Assembly: GCA_950295325.1 (NCBI GenBank)
Contig: OX485806.1
Location: 25,358,001 to 25,422,000, forward strand
Direction: 5' to 3'
DNA length: 64,000 nucleotides
Source of the DNA: Polytrichum commune
Taxonomy: Eukaryota; Streptophyta; Polytrichopsida; Polytrichales; Polytrichaceae
Under the pieces are notes generated by a model. The model searched no databases. It was not told where the DNA came from and saw only the letters and a list, made by a program, of their open reading frames with translations. How positions within the stretch are numbered: position 1 is the stretch's first letter; each line of letters begins with the position of its first letter. The position numbers were made by a program, and so were the translations under genes. Shown here piece by piece: positions 6,416 to 39,939 of this stretch.

Positions 6416-9400
6416 CTACCCTGCAACTTGACTGGGCACTGCCCCACCTGTTGCATCAATTACCAAGCGTTGCTTGGTAACAGGTGGTTCTCGCCGATGC
6501 TCAACCTCTGTGTTTCGAGCTCCTGTGCGACCCCCACCAAACCGCCCCCTACGACCATGGTTGAAGTCCCTTCCACGAGACACAGGAGGGCTTCCACCTT
6601 CCCCAGTCCAATGTCCACTATCTACTTTAGGACTTGGAATAGCCATTGGGGCTGTTTGCTGAGGTGCCTTGCTCTGATGTTGCCCTGAAGATTGCTGTGA
6701 ACCTTGGGAATCAGCTGCCTCTTGCTTTTTGGATTCATTTCTGCCAGACTGGGAAATTGGTAGATCCCTATCGGATGCATGGGTCCGTGAAGAACCTGCA
6801 CGATACCCATCATGGGCAGCAGTTTGCTGCCAATGGCTCTGGCCTCTTTGAGGTGCACCAGAGGGCCTCATTTCATGCTCTCCCTCAAACCTTCCACGCT
6901 GATGAGAGCCATGTTCATTACTATCAGTAGACTGCTGGTAGTCACCCCTGGAGGATTGCTGGTGCTGGTGCTGGTAATGTCTTTCACGAGGCATAGGCTG
7001 ACCAGGCTCCTTATGTGCTGGTGCAGTCACTGACTTGTTTTGTGGATGTGGCCCAGCAAAGACTTGCTGATTGGGTGCCTGTTCCCTTTCAGACACTTGC
7101 TGCCTGGGATGGTTACCTCCGCCAGTGCGATTGGGCTGGTGAGGGCCAGAATTTTCAGATGGGAAAGATCCATCAGCCGGTACACTAAAATTGCGAGAGT
7201 GTTGAACTGACCCCTGCTCGTGCCCTTTGTTCTTTGAGAAACGAGGGTTTTGTCCTTGCTGATCCTGTCCCCGTTGAGCAGGTGCAGAGGTGGGCCGAGG
7301 CGGTTGATAAGGTTTTTGGTGAGCTGGCTGCTCCCTCTCTGGCGCATGAAGAGGATCTGGAACAGAAACCTGGGTTGGAGTTGGAGCTGGCAGCCCCTTA
7401 GTAGGTGCAGGGTTAGATGGGGATGTGATCTGAGTAGCCTGAAGAGCAGCCAGTGGTTGATTTCCAGGTCCCTGGTTTCTTCGAAAGGGAGGATGTCCTC
7501 CAGACTTCTGATCGGTCCTTGCTGGTTGATTTCCAGTATCCCCAGTAGCAAGACCACTAGGGTGTGATGAAGACGAATCTTTCACATTTTCAGAGCCTCT
7601 GTCATTTCCAGAGCCACGCTGACGCCATGCCCCATGAGGCCTCTTGCTCGCTGGATCAGCTTGTTTGGCATCATGGTTCAATTTGGCTTCCACAGATGAT
7701 GACTGTTTGGCTTCTGGGACATGGATAGTTTCTCCACTATTAGCAGGACTAGGGGGAGCAGCTTGTGTGTTGGTGTTTAGGGATGTTTGAGTATGTCGCT
7801 GAGAAGAGGGTGCCCGTGCTTCAACAGCCTCCAGGTGTTTCAGAACAGGTTTAGGGCTGTAACGCTCCAGTTCTCCTCGTTTTACAGGAGCTTGAGCTGA
7901 CTGCTGTACAGCACTTGACTCTTCTTTCGGCTGTTCACTAGTTCGGGTGTCAACACTGTCTGCCTTGCTGCCTCCCCCAGCTTGGGGAGATCTCACTGGT
8001 GCCCACACCATGCTGTCATTAACGTGCGATTTGTCTGCTACTCGTACATCCTGTGATCCCCGGTCGCCACGTGCTGGACGCCTAGCACTATGACCCTTGC
8101 GCTGCACGCGTTTAGTAGGGAGATCTCCGTTGGTTGAAACTGCAGATTCTTCATCACCAGTCAAAGCATCTCCTGACAGATTGACATTAAACAAGCTCGT
8201 TGTATCCTTGCCAGAATCTGCACGAAGTAAGATTAAATTTGAGTCAACTGGAATGTCACTTCCTGAAGAGCCATTTGTGTGAAGTTCGGCAATTATGTCA
8301 CCAAACTGTATGCCTTCTCCAGAAATTGGACCTTCTTGTGGAATTTCTTTCAGAGTCCTCCTATTACTGCGTTTACTACTAGTCTTCTTGCGTGAGGTGC
8401 TGCTCATGGTCACTTGACTTGCGTGATCTACCAAATCTGTGTCTTGTGATGCTGAAGCTCCAATATTCCATCCCCCATTGTCAGCAAACATGGGAAAATT
8501 CACTTGGTCTGCATCGTCCAGCCTCACAACTATCTGCTTTTTCTCTGGCCTGCCCCTGTGAGATCTAGGCTGCTGCTGTGCCTTCACCTGTTGACCATGC
8601 AACTCAGGCTGTGCCACAGGAGTGCTCAGAAGAGGAGCAGCAGTTACGGTTGGAGCGGGAAGGATTGCAGTTGGTTGGGCTACAGTGCCATTCATTTTTC
8701 CTTTTGTGCTTTCAGCCATGGCTACAGCTACAGCCGCTTTCCGGCCATTGGCCTTCCTGTCACGTTCTCGTTTGCCATGCTCATTGCGTCCACTGCCTCG
8801 ACTGGTGCTGCTACTGAAGCCAGTATCAACCACTGGTTCATTGTCGAGAGGTAGTGGCTGCTCCAATGTTGAAACATCATCTTCAGGTGTTGTCTTTAAG
8901 GTCTCCACGAGGGTCTCATCAGTGGTCGATACATGTGCTCTTCCTCTTCGATCCAGCTCTTCCAGCTTTGCTCTGGCCTTCGCCTTCTGCTCTTTGATCC
9001 TTTCTTCCTCCTCCTTCTGCAATTGCCTTGCTCGCTGGGCAGCAATTTCCTTCATCTTAGCCCGCTGCAATAGTCCATTTCCTGAAATTAACTAGAGGAC
9101 AATAACTCCACAAATATGACAAATAAAGGTACAGGCCTTACCCAAAGGAGTAAAATAGCAGAAAAGGCAAGAGGACACCAAAGTGCACAATATCTACATC
9201 AAGATCTGAGATACCATAAGTTCCCTCTATGCGCTTGCAATTTCAAAGACACCAGGATATATTAGATGAAGAGAAAGGGCGCACCTGTGCATCAAAATCA
9301 TATGGATCAGGTTGCAATGAACTCTCAGATTCTGGAGCAGTGTTGTCTGAAGAATCTGTGGGTACTGGAGTAGCTTGAGCAACAACTGGTTTTATAACTG

Positions 9401-12400
9401 GTGCTGGGGCAGTAACCAAGGGACGTGGACTTGACTCTGCCAATGGAACCTTAGGTCGCCACTCTTTCTCCCCATCATGTGAAGAGGCCTTGGCCTTGGC
9501 TTTTGTTCCATCTTTTCCCACACTGTCGTGGACTGCAGGGGTTAGGACCCCGGACGCATTCAATGCTCCAGTATCACCAACAACTGGCTCAATTCGAGGA
9601 CTATCTACACCACTTACCCCAGAACGTCTTATATTACGCGGTTTCTCACTAGCTTTCTGACTCTCAGTCTCTGAGGCAGGAGGAGAGGGTACAGCAGCAA
9701 ACTTATCTTGACTGGGAGGGTGTGAAACTTCTGGTGAAGGTGCAACCTCACTTGTTGCAATGCGTGGAGCATTTCCAAGAATACCAGGTTTTGTTGTCTT
9801 TTGCTGACCAGACCGTGAAGGATGTACACTTGCAGCAGCTGGGCCAATAACCTCTCTGTTGTTGTTATTTTCAGCTCTCCTGCTACCTCTTTCCCACTTT
9901 CCAGACATTTCTTTGGTCACTACCTTTGCCACAACTTCCTTGTCCACAACATTTAACACTTTTCTCTCAGTCTGATCCCTTCCTTCTGGAACTTCAACAG
10001 CATCATTAATCTTGATTGTAGGGGTGGATACATCTTCCTCAAGTTTCAAGGATGCAATAGTTTCAGGTTTTGGCCCAACTATCACCTTTGCCTGCTCCTC
10101 ATCTTTTGGTACTTCCAGGTCAACGATATTCTTGTCATGTTTACTGTCCAACTTTACAGTATCTTCATGCTTCACTTCTTCAACAGCAGTCACCTCAATC
10201 TGTGCTGGAGCAGGAGACTGCTTTCCTGAGGTATCTGATGATGGGAGTGGAATCTCCTCCTCAAATACTGGCTTGGAGAAATCCATCGGCTCATCAGATG
10301 CTCCCCAGTCACGATGACCAGCATGATGACCACTTGATCCCCCTCTATGAGACTGCCGGTGACTGTCAGTAACAGGATTTGCAGACTGAATTGCTGCACC
10401 CCTCCGATTATCACCAGCATCCTGACTTGGAGCAGGACCACCAGTAAATCTCTCACTGTAACCCCTTCCTTCTTTATGACCAGGACCTTCTTTGTGGAAG
10501 TTAGGACCTTCATGATAACCTTCTCCCACAGAATCATTCCGATCTCGTACATTGTTGTTTAAAGGATGCCGAGGCCCTTGGTTCATGCCTCCGTGAGGAT
10601 AACGTCCAAAAGCTTCAGGAGGAGGACCCCTGTGCTGTGGATATCCACCATATGGCCCACCCCCCATGCCTAACATCATTCTTTCTGATTCCTCCATCCC
10701 CTGGTAATTTGGAGGTCCATAGAAACCATCATAAGGACCTGGACCTTGATACATATTTGGCCTCAAGGGATGCATAGGGCCAGCAGGCCGGAGCAAGGGA
10801 CCTGCATTGCTATACATATCACCATGGTGACCATAACCACCAGGACCTGGCACTCCACGACCATAAGGTGCAGGCCCAAGACCAAACCGTGGTTGATGCA
10901 TAAATCCAGGTCCATCATGAGGAAAATGACCAGGCCCTGGAGGAGGTCCATACTGGCCCACAGGTGGAGCACCTCCTCGGCGCCAACTATCATCTGCTGG
11001 ACCACCTAAAGGAGGAGCATCACGCCTCCAATTATCAGCCTGAGACAACTGCCCACCATGCAAGGGCCTTGGAGGTGGTCCCTCCCTGTGCCAGTTGCCC
11101 TCTGATATTGGTGGAGGACCTTGAAAAGGAGCAGGCTCCCTTCTCCATGAATCCATTGCGCCCCGGTCCTGGATTCCATAATTCTCTGTGGGAGGAGTTG
11201 GCAATACTTCGTCTGCAATCATTCCCCGTCAACCAACAAAGGGCATTAGCGTTGCTGTAAAAACTGCACATAATACAAACAAGGCTCCCACAAAGTCCAT
11301 GTAAGACATATCGCAGAAAAATCTCTTGATCACTCCAAACCATATACAAGCTTTACCCAATAGGATCATCTAAAGCCAATCAGGTATAGACCTACCATGA
11401 GGACCAGGTGGTGCATGTGACCACGTCTCTTCTGAAGCTGGCACTTTCTCTTCAACTGAGCCCCCTCGCTCTGGAACAGAGGTTCCTGTCCAATCAATAT
11501 GGACACTGTTATGAACATCTGCCCATTCCAAACGTTCTAAGTTGGACAAGGTTGTCAAAAATGAATTGCATAATACCATTAGGGTGTTGTCTTGGTTGTT
11601 GACTAGAATACATGAATTGAAATGCTTCCGAGATTACAAGATATTGAAAACTAGGACTTTCAAGGCCATAATAAAGGATTATACTCTTCATATAGAGCTC
11701 CTACTTTTAAATGATCCCCCAAAAGATATTTTTGCAAAGCATGCATTTTAATCCAGAAGAACCCAAAGTAACTACCTGAGACTAACCACTCACCTTGCTG
11801 AGGGCGAAGGTCTGGATTTTTCTCTGAGCCCAATGTCGGGAAGTCTGTCCTTGTTAGCTGGAAACGAGAAACCTGGTGCGGCTCTTCTCCCTGAAAAAAA
11901 AAACAACCCCTTCCCCTATCAGATACTCCCCTCCTGCTGATATTCAGAAACTCAACCAAAGACAACAGAATCTCTGCGAATATCAAGAGAAAATTTGCAA
12001 ATGACAAGAAGATCCAGAGCAATTTTCAAAAACCAGATCAGAAATTGACAAGAACATGACTTGGAAAGCTGGCAAATGGATCTAATTACTTCAGGAATTC
12101 AGAACACAATCTTCAAAGAACCTTCATGCAAACACCTTCAGAATCTCTCTAACCTCCTTCAAAAGTATAGCTTACCAGTCTGCGGGGAGCACCAGAAGTT
12201 CCCCATGCTGGCGGAGATGGATTGGCAGATTCTCCAAATTGAGAGAGATTAGAAAGCGATCGTGATGTGTCGGCACTCCGCGGCCGTGATAGTGGCACTG
12301 AAGTTTGCTGTGCCTGCCCCAGAACTCCAGAAGCGGAAGCCGGCCTTGCACCCCATGCACTGTTGGAATTTGCAGTACTTGAGAAGGAATCAGGTGATTG

Positions 12401-14372
12401 CTGTGATTGTCCAATGCTGCCCGCTGATGATGGACGGGTACCACTCCCTCCTGAAGTAGGACGAGCACCACTACCTCCTGAAGTTGGTCGTGGTAAATTT
12501 GCTGGACCACCCACACCTGCACCTGTGCCTGCCGAAGCTGTCCCTGATTTTGCTCCCCAAGCACCACTACTAACAGGTGGGGAAGATGCTGGTGGTGGGT
12601 TTCCCCAAGCACTGTTGCTGGTTGGTGGTGACCTTCCCACAGATCCCCAGCTCACACTTCCCCTGTGCGACAAGTCACAAAGATAAATTATCAAGACAGA
12701 GCCAACTGCTCTAAATAGTGGCAACAACCATAATGCATCAGTAGAGTATCCGCCCATCAGAACAGGTAAAAGGGCAGGACATTTATTTTATTTTATTTAA
12801 ATACATATATACATACTCAAGTTATTCAACTTCATGATACACCAACATGATGTATGATATTATTGTTTAAAATGAGATTGTTCTTTACACATACCCTACT
12901 GTCTTTTCCAAGGTACTGTTTACTGCATGTATATAGTATTACCCTCAACATACTATCCACATCTAACTCATGGAAGTCAAAAGTCCGGGTGCTTTCCCAC
13001 CACAAAAACCAAGAACTCCAACACTTGACCTCCATGCCTTGCAAGAGTCGAAGATCTAAATGCACAATGCACGTATGATTGCAGACATCTTCAATACAGA
13101 TGGACTGATGCAGATTTGTATTTCATTTATAGAGCTCCAAGATAGCATTTAGAAAAAACCAATATATTTACCTTGGTACAATCTCCACGTTAGGATCAAG
13201 TCCCCGATTCTCCAACCTGGAAGGGATTCCAATTGGTCGTAAGACTGTGCACCAAACAATACCAGCACTTCAATCTCAATAGAAGATACTTAACTGCCTT
13301 CAGCCTGGGCCATCCTAAAGCAGTGTGCCCTAACCTAGAGGAGACCATGAAAACTATCTGCAAGATCAGGAGACAGTTGTATATTCAGCACAATCGTAAA
13401 AATAATCATACCGTTGACTTGGTAAGTTGATAGGCTTAGGTACTGCAGGTATCTTGCCCAGCACTTGCATACCCCTTCGAGCCGAGCTCCCCCTGCAAAT
13501 CACAACAAAATGAACGGGACATCAGACTTGTCCTTTCCTAACTCTAGAACCTCAAAGTAGAATTGCTTGCCAGCATATAGCATACACAAGTAACTATGCA
13601 ATAAAAACATTGTTAAGCTCCCACTGTCCTACAGTCCTACTAAGATGCATTCACTTTTCTCCTTCTACAGCATCCACAAAACCCTGCAGCAGTTAAGTGC
13701 CTAAGAAACCCCAGCTGTTTCACAAATACCAGTAAACTCCGATAGGCCATGGTGGATTAAAAGAGTCCTCTCCAAGAAGGGCTGGAGAGGGGAAGGCAAA
13801 GGCAGGTTCACAAACCATAGAATCTCCAGTGTCCCAATAGAAATGGGAGAATAGAACGATCCAATAGTTCTTTACTATCGAGAGGCTGTACAATCTCGAA
13901 TCCAACACTAAATGTACAATTGAAAGTGCTTTTGAGAGTCACCCTCGCTGCTTATGCAAAAAGACGACACTTGGTGGCAGAACATTACTAAAGTCGAGGC
14001 ATCTAAACTATCTGTACATACTGCCACGTTTGCTTCTATACTTTTATGCCCACTGGCCACATCACAATTGTGTGCGCCAAATCCAGAAATCGAGATGGAG
14101 GTTATTTCAAAATCTTCTATTTGCAGAACATCCAGGGTACACATGGCGCCTATTGGATATAGCTTGGCCTTCTGTCTCTCCTTTCAAGAGTTACTTGCCG
14201 TGCCACAAGACAATGAATAAACAAGCCTCTTCAATTTCTGATTGTCCTTGTGAACCGATAATTCCAATCCAGGAATCAGACACAGAGAGAAGAGGGAGCG
14301 TGAGAGAGGGAGGGAGGAAGGGGAATGTGGGAAAGGCGTCGCAAAAACACACCTCCTCTCGCCCGTCAACAT
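6416..14372 (-). CDS. MOS1: MODIFIER OF SNC1 (MOS1)-like BAT2-domain protein, 8 coding exons
   Basis: I place coding exons at 14372-14353, 13492-13412, 13216-13172, 12662-12176, 11890-11794, 11485-11396, 11212-9285 and 9091-6416. All have GT-AG borders and matching phases, giving 5,424 nt, or about 1,807 aa plus TAG. The start ATG opens MLTGERR and leads into a stretch closely matching the N-terminus of Arabidopsis MOS1: GKIPAVPKPINLPSQR, then NRGLDPNVEIVPRG and SWGS. This is the BAT2 N-terminal region, about residues 1-250, which also contains RPRSADTSRS and DFPTLGSEKN. Residues about 275-480 are Gly/Pro/Tyr-rich. A charged helix (QRARQLQKEEEERI ... KLEELDRR) lies at about 925-965, followed by the conserved VWAPV and ERYSPKPV motifs and an RGG-like C-terminus. 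The protein is longer than Arabidopsis MOS1 (about 1,400 aa). MOS1 acts in the nucleus on NLR immune-receptor and cell-cycle gene expression. Less certain are exon 6, which could begin upstream at about 11,522 in the same phase, and the last acceptor, where 9081 also looks good but breaks the frame. Confidence 0.9.
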
Positions 14373-36252: not shown

Positions 36253-36612
36253 AAGGTAGTTAATTTCCAATGCCCAATACAGTTGTATAAAGAACTATGA
36301 AAAGGTCATGATTTTTCAATAAAAATTTCCATTTTGCTTTTCAACACTAATATTAAGTGAACCATTAATTTAATTCAAATACCAAATTCGGAAAATTTTG
36401 CTACCCACCTCAAAAAATAAAACATCAAAGTCAAATGTGCACGGTTAGTAGCATGCCTACGATAGTACTTACAAAACAAGTTAGGGTTTGGTCCCGCGTC
36501 ATCGAGCCGCTGTGAATGAGACATGTGTGGCCACAGGCAGATCCTACACCGTCGATGCACGTGGCCTCATCCAGCGGGTCGTGGCTATTGTGTTGTCAGG
36601 GAGGATATGGAA

Positions 36613-37273
36613 CAGAGTTCGGGAAGTTTTTGAAGCCTTAGTGGCTAATTGCCAGTAGTTGCTACAAAGGGTCGGATTTTTTCCAATTTACATCGGCAAC
36701 AGCCGGTCTTTTGTAAAATCAATCGGCCAATTGCCTATATTCTCATATTCTCATTGGCCAATATCCGATTAAATGGAATTCATATCGGCACTAATTGTTT
36801 TAAAAATGTATGAAAATTTATTAGAAATCATTTCTTAGTACAAAATCTTGAATAAGTGAAAAGAAAAGGCATGTTCAAAACTTTAAATTTGAAGAGTTAA
36901 TATCCTTGGCAGGAATTGAACCTAGCAATGCCTTCACCGCTTGAAGGCCAAGGGTCCCCCAATTCTTCATAGAAGCAATTGGATTTGGTCATGTAAAGGT
37001 TGCATAATTCAAATGGTTTAAGGTTTAGGGTACTTCCTCAAGTGCATCATCAGATGCCCTAGACAAATAGCGCTATGGATGCTTCCGGCTGAAATCCAGT
37101 AACTCACAAGAAGAATCGGCTACATTTCCGGGACATCTTCTGGTTCATTGGCTAATTGCCGGAAGATTGAAATTACAGTCAGATTGCCATCCGATGGTTG
37201 GAAATTTGGACCGGCCATGAGGGGAAATCCATCAGCTGGTAATGAACTAGCCGTCGGTTTTCCCCGAACATAG
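36613..37273. mobile_element. hAT-like non-autonomous element, copy 1
   Basis: A 661-bp unit beginning CAGAGTTCGGG and ending CCCCGAACATAG, so the ends form an imperfect inverted repeat around GTTCGGG. It is flanked by TATGGAA on both sides (36,606-36,612 and 37,274-37,280). It is about 95% identical by eye to 38,416-39,075. Because each copy has its own flanking duplication, they are independent insertions and not LTRs. The 7-8-bp duplication and CAG-start end point to hAT. No transposase is encoded. Confidence 0.8.
36904..36953 (-). ncRNA. 50-nt tRNA-like fold without anticodon arm, copy 1
   Basis: Read on the minus strand: CCTTGGC (acceptor strand), CTTCA-AGCGG-TGAAG (D-like arm), an 8-nt linker, AGG-TTCAATT-CCT (T-like arm matching the Pol III B box GGTTCRANYCC), then GCCAAGG, which closes the 7-bp acceptor-like stem. 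It lies inside the hAT-like copy 1. Whether it is transcribed is unknown. Confidence 0.4.
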
Positions 37274-37284
37274 TATGGAACCAT

Positions 37285-38280
37285 GGCCAGCGTGGCACGG
37301 GGGTCGAGGATCCGTGTCAGGTTGCGTCTGCGGCTCACCTGCCGCGGTCTCTCTCTCACCTCCTCGGCTCTCGGTTTGATTCCCCTTTCTCCTGCCAGCT
37401 TCCGATTTTCCCTCTGACCTCTTGTGTAAGTATATCAAGAGAATCAAAGCAATGTGTTAACTAGGAGCATATTGTGATCTTCGTGGCCCTTCATTTTGTG
37501 ATACAGATTAGCCGCTACCAAACAATCGTCATCACTTGATGATGTCATGGGTTCACCACCATGAATACCCTAACCCATTTGCTTTATGGAAACCCAATGC
37601 ACAAGCAACGACCACAGACCCAGAATCGGCAACCTTCTTTGAACGTTCACAATGTTCTTCTCTTCGCCATTTCTTGGCTCCATTCTTACTACGAGAGGCA
37701 TCATGCAGTCTCCTACGAGCTCCTTTGAATTCCCTGCTGCCACCTTCAAGAGCTGTGTAGTACGAGGAAGGCGAGGAAGACAACGTTCATGCGAGGGCTT
37801 CAAGGTAGGGAGGCAGGGAGACAGCAACAGAGAGTCCACAAGCAAATGGAAGCAAGCTAGTCAATCTTCGTCGTCTTCTTCTTCTTCTTCTTCCTAAATG
37901 GGAGAGAAGGAGGAAATTTTATGATGAAAGTGGAGGGAAACCTCGAGTGTCGAGTTCATCATCAAGATTCTCAAGTGACTGGTCGGGGTTTAAGGGGGAC
38001 CAAAAAGGAATTCAACAGCAGCAAGCCATACTCGCAAGACTCATTGACAGGAGATATGGTGGTCCGAGGGATCGCACAACCGCCGGTGGCGATCCACAAG
38101 ACAAGTTTCGTGATGGTGGAGATGTGCAAAAAAGAGAATCTGGAAATTTTCGACCAAGAGGTAGAGCGTAGAGGAGAATTGAAACCTGGCAGGAGAAATG
38201 GCGATCAACCCGAGAGCTGAGGAGGTGAGAGAGACCTGACGCAACCTGACGCGGATCCTCGGCCGCCGTGCCACGCTGGA
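37285..38280. mobile_element. Inner inverted-repeat unit enclosing captured coding sequence
   Basis: The segment 37,285-37,400 (GGCCAGCGTGGCACGG..., GAGGATCCG, CTCTCTCTCACCTCCTC) is mirrored at 38,184-38,280. The two arms are about 80-90% similar by eye over 100-140 bp. The loop of about 780 bp has more balanced base composition than the surroundings and contains a gene-like coding stretch. This resembles a Pack-type element, meaning a non-autonomous transposon carrying a host gene fragment. Confidence 0.5.
37652..38171 (+). pseudogene. Captured coding fragment with transit-peptide-like N-terminus, frameshifted
   Basis: The frame 37,652-37,897 starts MFFSSPFLGSIL..., is rich in Ser/Arg with few acidic residues like a chloroplast transit peptide, and ends in a poly-Ser run encoded by a TCT/TTC microsatellite. 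Directly after the run the coding sense continues in another frame (up to 38,171) with a sequence including QQQQAILARLIDRRYGGPRDR. Length change in the microsatellite therefore probably broke one original frame. I do not recognise the parent gene. It sits between the inner inverted repeats, consistent with capture by a transposon. Confidence 0.4.
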
Positions 38281-38415
38281 CCCCATCCCAGAGTCCAGGG
38301 AGTTCTGTAGAGAAAACGGCTAATTGCCGAGCTTTCTGGAGGTGGCTCGGATTTTTCAATTTTTACCCGGAAGTGGGTCTAGAGAGTGCAAAATTTATCG
38401 GTTGAAAGCCCCCAT

Positions 38416-39075
38416 CAGAGTTCGGAAAGTTTTTGAAGCCTTAGCAGCTAATTGCCGGTAGTTGCTACGAAGGGTCGGATTTTTCCCAATTTACATCGGC
38501 AAGAGCCGGTCTTTTGTAAAATCAATCGGCCAATTGCCTATATTCTCATATTTTCATTGGCCAATATCCGATTAAATGGAATTGATATCGGCACTAATTG
38601 TTTAGAAAATGTATGAAAAGTTATTAGAAATCATTTCTTAGTACAAAATCATGAATAAGTGAAAAGAAAGGCATGCTCAGAACTTTAAATTTGAAGAGTT
38701 AACATCCTTGGCAGGAATTGAACCTAGCAATGCCTTCACCGCTTGAAGGCCAAGGGTCCCCCAATTCTTCATAGAAGCAATTGGATTTGGTCATGGAAAG
38801 GTTGCATAATTCAAAAAGTTTAAGGTTTAGGGTACTTCCTCAAGTGCATCATCAGATGCCCCAGACAAATAGCACTCTGGATGCTTCCGGCTGAAATCTA
38901 GTAACTCACAAGAAGAATCGGCTACATTTCTGGGACATTTTCTGGTTCATCGGCTAATTGCCGGAGGATTGAAATTACAGTCGGATTGCCATCCGATGGT
39001 TGGAAACTTGGACCGGCCATGAGGGGAAATCCATCGGCTGATAATGAACTAGCCGTCGGTTTTCCCCGAACATAG
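38416..39075. mobile_element. hAT-like non-autonomous element, copy 2
   Basis: A 660-bp sister of 36,613-37,273 with the same ends (CAGAGTTCGG ... CCCCGAACATAG). It is flanked by a perfect 8-bp duplication GCCCCCAT (38,408-38,415 and 39,076-39,083), the length made by hAT transposases. No coding capacity. Confidence 0.85.
38706..38755 (-). ncRNA. 50-nt tRNA-like fold, copy 2
   Basis: Same 50-nt module as at 36,904-36,953, within the second hAT-like copy, with all three stems intact. Confidence 0.4.
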
Positions 39076-39275
39076 GCCCCCATTTTCCTAATGTATTTAG
39101 GCAATTAGTCAACATTTTTTTTTCATTTATGCAATTTCTGAAAGGTCTAAAGTGGGGCCGGTTTTATATTTTGGTGGTGGATGTGTCATTGTCATTTATT
39201 CTTTCATTTTTTTCAAGTTCTTAGGATTAAATAATGTGGGCATTCACTCTCCATTTTTTTTTGTCTAAATAGTAT

Positions 39276-39325
39276 CTTTAGCAAGAGTTGAACCTGGCAA
39301 AGCCCCTACCATATTAGGGCTAAGG
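39276..39325 (-). ncRNA. 50-nt tRNA-like fold, divergent copy 3
   Basis: Outside the hAT-like copies but inside the same mosaic. Minus strand: CCTTAGC, CCTA-ATATGG-TAGG arm, 9-nt linker, AGG-TTCAACT-CTT arm, then GCTAAAG. The length is again exactly 50. Compared with copies 1 and 2, the acceptor-like stem has a G-C to A-T pair swap (CCTTGGC/GCCAAGG to CCTTAGC/GCTAAAG, one mismatch), and the D-like arm is changed on both sides. Confidence 0.35.
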
Positions 39326-39939
39326 ATTTAGCCTTCGGAAAATACAAGCACCACAAAAGGGTCCAAGTATTATCCAGAGGCTAGTTAGTATTAAAAAATC
39401 ACGAAATTTCTAGAACTCAAAAACTCATAATGCAAATGAAAATGCAAGCTCCACCGCTATGGAATGGAAGCTGTGGCGGGAAGCAAGTAACCTTAAACCA
39501 CAAGCCACACTAACCCTAAACCACAAGCCAACAAGGCATAGTCTCCAACTATGCATAGTATTGAAAAAATTATCTAAAATATATATATTTGGGTGGCTGC
39601 CCGCCGTGAGAATAAATTTTCAATTGGTAATTTGCCGTGAATACTCTAGGGCAGTTTGCCTTAATGCTGGAATTTTTTTTCTAATCGGCCCATTTCCGTA
39701 AACCTTGATTTTCTTCCGGAACCCCTTCCTAAACTTTCGAATTGCATTCGGAAATTCTCAAAATCAACTGGCTAGCTTGTAACTAACTGCCGGCACTACC
39801 CTTTCATTGCCCTGTCCTCCCCTGACAACGCAATAGCCACGAGCCGTTGGATGCGTCCCCACGCATCGACGGTAGAGATCTCTCTGCCCGCGACCACATG
39901 GGCCTCATTCACAACGCCTCAGTGACGCGGGTTTGATCA

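Follow-up and report, generated by a model that had tools for sequence, protein, structure and literature searches.

A conserved RNA element of ~120 nt is part of the 3' UTR of the transposase gene in one plant hAT lineage. This element consists of a UACUAAC heptamer, followed by an imperfect hairpin of ~55 nt and then by a tRNA-like cloverleaf of 54 nt. The hAT MITE derivatives of the type present in the window, which is the whole 64,000-nt stretch of Polytrichum commune DNA analysed here, inherited it. Its base pairing has very probably been kept by compensatory changes, which would represent selection on structure at the RNA level. The pattern of conservation suggests that the hAT transposon probably uses this tRNA look-alike to control the end or the fate of its mRNA.

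The sequence-only reading described three minus-strand copies of a tRNA-like motif, 50 nt each, and all three are present at 36904-36953, 38706-38755 and 39276-39325. The unit of 50 nt is too short, however, because the conserved element comprises 54 nt of cloverleaf, the upstream hairpin and UACUAAC, ~120 nt in total. The features of the three copies and of the elements carrying them are as follows.

36614-37273, minus strand: hAT MITE family A copy 1, with an 8-bp TSD TATGGAAC at 36606-36613 / 37274-37281
36904-36953, minus strand: tRNA-like motif copy 1, in MITE family A; covariance model R1, with family A left out of the training, matches 36898-36990 (42.7 bits, E 2e-7)
36955-36988, minus strand: short hairpin of unrelated sequence directly upstream of copy 1, assigned by homology with copy 2
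38289-39809, minus strand: hAT derivative family B, host of copy 3, with ends CAGAGTCC... / ...CATTG and an imperfect 8-bp TSD
38416-39075, minus strand: hAT MITE family A copy 2, with an 8-bp TSD GCCCCCAT at 38408-38415 / 39076-39083
38706-38755, minus strand: tRNA-like motif copy 2, in MITE family A, identical to copy 1; the covariance model matches 38700-38792 (40.3 bits, E 7e-7)
38757-38790, minus strand: short hairpin directly upstream of copy 2, assigned by its fold
39270-39390, minus strand: whole element of lineage B (~120 nt, with UACUAAC, the hairpin and the tRNA-like part), which holds copy 3; covariance model R1, 132 bits, E 1e-26
39274-39327, minus strand: 54-nt tRNA-like cloverleaf (39276-39325 plus the two outermost acceptor pairs), consensus helices 2-5
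39330-39382, minus strand: upstream imperfect hairpin, consensus helix 1, with 19 pairs, 7 of them with two-sided changes
39384-39390, minus strand: UACUAAC heptamer at the 5' edge of the element, 13/13 in alignment A2

Copies 1 and 2 have the same sequence, and copy 3 matches both at 35 of 50 positions without gaps. The swap of G5-C46 for A5-U46 in the acceptor-like stem of copy 3 and the two-sided changes in its D arm, both of which had been pointed out before, are found. Copies 1 and 2 provide no independent evidence, because both are located in copies of one MITE family. When folded alone, copies 1 and 2 reach a z-score of only -1.8, and copy 3, with a z-score of +0.6, does not fold into a cloverleaf. 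The evidence for the structure is therefore comparative, not energetic, since the folding energies of the single window copies are uninformative. In the assembly (408 Mb, seven large contigs), pattern searches detect the 28-nt core of the motif 1,285 times at up to 3 mismatches, compared with once for a reversed-pattern control, and this difference excludes a chance origin of the motif. A pattern search for the GGTTCGA variant yields few true members.

The two copies said to ride in a hAT-like element are indeed both located in a hAT MITE of ~660 bp (family A), of which the assembly contains ~770 copies. MITE A copies 1 and 2 are ~95% identical across ~660 bp, and both have the 8-bp TSD (TATGGAAC and GCCCCCAT) and short TIRs (CAGAGTTCGGG) by which the hAT superfamily is recognized. 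The terminal inverted repeats of copy 1 are (C)AGAGTTCGGG / CCCCGAACATAG, also given as CAGAGTTCGGG / CCCCGAACATAG. Motif copy 3 does not lie beside the same element, as had been thought, but within a different, related hAT derivative (family B), which is split by MITE A copy 2, such that family B blocks of 339 bp and 128 bp flank the inserted 660 bp. The alignment between families A and B starts only at the first base of the motif, and family A has its own short hairpin upstream. In family B, the C-terminus of a hAT transposase is still encoded by an open frame. This end scores 21.1 bits against Pfam Dimer_Tnp_hAT (PF05699, C-terminal dimerisation; cut-off 21.4, E 2.7e-4), and a match to DUF4371 is weak. 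This part of the transposase is intronless, because one relative contains an uninterrupted frame of 506 codons.

The entire mosaic is enclosed by a long imperfect inverted repeat (window 36493-36601 and 39820-39931). It may sit in a foldback-like or other long-TIR element, because the inner ends of this repeat are located within ~12 bp of MITE A copy 1 and of the end of family B. A second pair of inverted repeats (37287-37411 and 38173-38279, 85-93% complementary) bounds a unit of ~1 kb that separates MITE A copy 1 from family B. Elsewhere in the window, the minus strand of 6416-12787 contains G/Q/P/S-rich open frames of up to 891 codons without a Pfam match, which probably represent one host gene.

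The position of the motif relative to the transposase gene is constant. A protein search of the genome with the transposase C-terminus gives 151 matches, and the motif is located downstream of the gene in 28 of the 30 best of these. Twenty more-diverged relatives, whose transposase C-termini are 66-84% identical, were chosen by protein match with their 3' UTRs unseen. All 20 have the motif on the sense strand, ~75-250 nt past the coding match. The covariance model gives 0 matches in eight members of other hAT lineages obtained by a PF05699 search. The independent sequences all come from one genome and represent about five lineages.

Each element has a single copy of the motif, which is confined to one end, lies ~300 nt short of the 3' terminus and is always sense to the gene. 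This arrangement argues against a DNA-level role, in which hairpins or inverted repeats would serve transposition as subterminal transposase sites or as a cruciform, and the tRNA loop identities would make no sense for DNA. Such a role would account for the survival of the motif in non-coding MITEs, and among the copies of MITE A, 401 of 771 (52%) have an exact match to a 30-mer of the motif, compared with 275 of 764 (36%) for one control 30-mer from another part of the MITE. The latter result hints at a slower change of the motif within MITE A, but the signal is weak, because it depends on a single control stretch and on copies with shared subfamily history, and subfamily structure may explain the difference. 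A DNA-level role is very improbable.

The boundaries of the element are marked by its conservation. Inside the element, lineages B, C and D show an identity of 0.73-0.78, whereas the 60 nt upstream and the 160 nt downstream of it are no more alike than shuffled sequences. In the E lineage (L093), part of the upstream flank is still shared with B and D. Compared with mononucleotide shuffles, whole elements from four lineages fold with z-scores of about -5, -5, -8 and -2. The UACUAAC heptamer is invariant and single-stranded in 13 of 13 elements. UACUAAC is the consensus of the branch point and of SF1/STAR-type proteins. At the 5' edge (L061-L110), it is only 1-2 nt away from the stem, and the AG is too near for ordinary splicing.

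The alignment of 13 diverse elements contains 38 pairs. In this alignment, 92.7% of the cells are paired, and 11 of the 38 pairs show two-sided changes. The number of double-change cells is 36, compared with a mean of 11.8 for shuffled controls and at most 2 for slid structures. RNAalifold, unaided, predicts 32 pairs, 10 of them with compensatory changes. The covariation was compared with phylogenetic noise by an R-scape-like null, in which the parsimony changes of each column are redistributed on a FastTree tree in 2000 replicates. The means of this phylogeny-aware null are 3.8 pairs, 6.5 cells and 75.8% paired, and the observed values of 11, 36 and 92.7% are attained in 0 of 2000 replicates each, although the fraction-paired statistic is favoured because the structure is derived from the same sequences. 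This result agrees with the selection on structure that the sequence-only reading had proposed as one of two explanations. The hairpin carries 25 of the 36 compensatory cells, more than the cloverleaf. When the cloverleaf alone is examined, in an alignment enlarged by family A and five more copies, it contains 17 such cells (1/2000 under the null), 91.6% paired cells (0/2000) and 6 pairs with two-sided changes (45/2000). Examples of compensatory changes are AUCCUUG/CAAGGAU versus AUCUCUG/CAGAGAU and AAGG-UUCAAAU-CCUU versus CAGG-UUCAAAU-CCUG.

A neutral remnant, in which an old tRNA-derived insertion is inherited by descent and the paired changes come from phylogeny, would agree with the descent of all copies from one hAT lineage and with the decay and weak folding energy of the window copies. 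The phylogeny-aware null does not reproduce the observations in any of its 2000 replicates, however, and the flanks of the most distant lineages have fallen to shuffle level while the element retains an identity of 0.69-0.78. We therefore regard a neutral remnant as extremely improbable.

The covariance model distinguishes members of the family from background. Members score 38-132 bits, whereas pattern-enriched decoys (1.2 Mb in total) reach 19.6 bits at best (E 0.2). The score of 132 bits is not blind, because the element of copy 3 (L031) is among the 13 training sequences of R1. The model trained without family A recovers both family A copies of the window (E 2e-7 and 7e-7). Among the loci listed when viral and prokaryote collections were searched with the pattern, the model finds no relative, and the matches listed are due to chance.

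The cloverleaf resembles a tRNA in several respects. Its acceptor stem of 8 bp and T stem of 4 bp (helices 2 and 5) form a stack of 12 bp with an uninterrupted 3' strand, as in tRNA. The T-loop is UUCAAAU, with UUCAA in 13/13 (tRNA criterion UUCRANN), and GG is present in the D-loop in 12/13. The anticodon arm is only a stub of 2-3 bp with a 3-nt loop, and thereby differs from the 5 bp and 7-nt loop standard for tRNA. The linker of 8-9 nt noted earlier forms this stub hairpin in most relatives. The cloverleaf has no linker between the acceptor and D stems, the tRNA linker bases U8 and R9 are missing, and the element encodes no 3' CCA. The spacer between the hairpin and the cloverleaf is 2 nt in 13/13. 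ARAGORN detects 0 tRNAs in the 64-kb window, Rfam at the gathering threshold gives no tRNA match in the window, and Rfam at E<=10 gives neither a tRNA (RF00005) nor a mascRNA/menRNA match in 11 relatives. The only Rfam matches concern the upstream hairpin; they are weak, miRNA-like and far under their cut-offs. Identity as a tRNA was rejected, as tRNA models do not recognize the cloverleaf and the anticodon arm is reduced to a stub. The cloverleaf may have a remote tRNA ancestry.

The other explanation offered by the sequence-only reading, descent from a structured Pol III transcript, finds no support: the T arm is B-box-like, but there is no A box at canonical spacing and no consistent T-run terminator, and the acceptor-stem changes lie outside the promoter boxes. 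In a related reading, the T arm would serve as a B box, either recruiting TFIIIC or driving short Pol III transcription from the 3' region of the transposon. The sequence GGTTCAAATCC comes close to the canonical B box, and an exact B-box match is present in 9 of 13 elements. However, an A box at canonical spacing is found in 0/13, T-runs soon after the cloverleaf occur in some lineages only, and compensatory changes extend to the acceptor stem and the upstream hairpin, beyond the promoter boxes. A Pol III/TFIIIC function is accordingly most unlikely. Identity as a SINE or Pol III gene was rejected on the same grounds (A box 0/13, no consistent terminator).

By analogy with known substrates, the 3' end of the transposase mRNA is quite possibly made by nuclear RNase P (PRORP), alone or together with RNase Z, with the cloverleaf as the substrate. 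The cloverleaf would present a tRNA elbow, formed by the D-loop GG against the T-loop UUCRA, on the 12-bp acceptor/T stack. Host nuclear PRORP, perhaps together with RNase Z, would then cut at the 5' edge of the cloverleaf, 2 nt past the upstream hairpin (before column 66 of A2; in copy 3 between 39328 and 39327), and release a tRNA-like RNA of ~54 nt. Because the cut would fall 2 nt past the hairpin, the mature mRNA would end with a stable hairpin and a 2-nt tail, without poly(A). PRORP exons are present at three loci in this genome, which, together with its TE content, looks plant-like. Every form of RNase P measures how far the elbow is from the acceptor 5' end, and PRORP, which replaces RNP RNase P in plants, reads G18-psi55 / G19-C56 (PMC10941002). 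AtPRORP1 cleaves a pre-tRNA without the anticodon arm at high efficiency, but not one without the D-loop (PMC4975455). Plant PRORPs also act on mitochondrial mRNAs, where they cut tRNA-like structures at the ends, and on such a structure within a nuclear tRNA-snoRNA precursor (PMC10941002). The fit of the cloverleaf to PRORP is specific, but it is an analogy, because the linker bases U8 and R9 are missing. That the cut by PRORP and RNase Z yields a non-polyadenylated, hairpin-ended transposase mRNA and a small tRNA-like RNA, possibly evading poly(A)-dependent surveillance and RNA silencing, is conceivable but rather unlikely.

Cleavage by RNase P requires neither UACUAAC nor the hairpin and explains neither of them. 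The main rival is for this reason an mRNA that is uncut and polyadenylated, in which the element acts in the 3' UTR on stability, export or translation, with the tRNA mimic binding a tRNA-binding protein and UACUAAC binding an SF1/STAR-type protein. The invariance of single-stranded UACUAAC and the surplus of compensatory cells in the hairpin favour this possibility, and indicate that the entire two-domain unit is kept, not the tRNA part alone. Protein binding to an uncut mRNA does not in turn explain why the features of an RNase P/Z substrate, namely the T-loop, the D-loop GG and the exact 12-bp stack, are kept, and we consider it possible but somewhat doubtful. Several non-processing functions of a hAT 3' UTR would leave the same sequence signature.

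If processing of the cloverleaf by tRNA enzymes is correct, this element is, as far as the literature coverage permits one to tell, the first case of a nuclear DNA transposon with a tRNA-like 3' element, and it allows one to test whether selfish DNA makes non-poly(A) mRNA ends with tRNA-processing enzymes. A literature search conducted without most subscription papers found no report of tRNA-like elements in hAT transposons, so that the novelty is provisional. The element is available in hundreds of copies in one genome with several natural compensatory variants, and should be a good minimal substrate for PRORP studies, because it naturally lacks the anticodon arm.

Known systems resemble the element in part. 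tRNA-derived SINEs also carry a B-box-like T arm in a repeat, but the hAT element differs from them in lacking an A box, a consistent Pol III terminator and target-site duplications of its own, and in its fixed position inside the hAT transposon. ENE and double-ENE elements have reportedly been described in plant hAT transposons (Tycowski, Shu and Steitz 2016), and are likewise conserved RNA structures in the 3' UTR of intronless transposase genes. ENE hairpins bind poly(A) through U-rich internal loops. The hAT element differs in that no such hairpin is detected in 8 UTRs by a simple, uncalibrated scan, whose sensitivity is unproven because it was run without a positive control. We know of no tRNA-like domain in the ENEs of plant hAT transposons. 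The TLS of plant RNA viruses is another case of tRNA mimicry in a 3' UTR, and PRORP has been modelled binding and cutting the TYMV TLS within the pseudoknot (PMC10941002). The viral TLS is located at the 3' terminus of the genome, whereas the hAT cloverleaf is internal and has ordinary acceptor pairing.

The closest systems are those in which a tRNA-like structure is cut from an mRNA or a long RNA. The t-elements of plant mitochondria are tRNA-like structures at mRNA ends that are cut by PRORP and RNase Z (PMC11658184, PMC10941002). They are mitochondrial and homologous to tRNA genes, whereas the hAT element belongs to a nuclear transposon and is not recognized as a tRNA. Identity as a mitochondrial t-element was rejected, as motif copies are distributed over all seven large contigs (42-78 Mb each). 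mascRNA is excised by RNase P and RNase Z (PMC11658184). Like mascRNA and menRNA of mammals (MALAT1/NEAT1), the hAT element combines a tRNA-like cloverleaf, placed 3'-terminally in a Pol II RNA, with a degenerate anticodon arm and a structured element before it. It differs in its location in the transposase 3' UTR of a plant DNA transposon, in the plain hairpin and UACUAAC upstream, with no U-rich triple-helix (ENE-like) site in the uncalibrated scan, and in giving no Rfam match, for which reason identity as mascRNA/menRNA was rejected. By analogy with these systems, we tentatively propose that the hAT element works like mascRNA/menRNA or the mitochondrial t-elements, in a nuclear DNA transposon.
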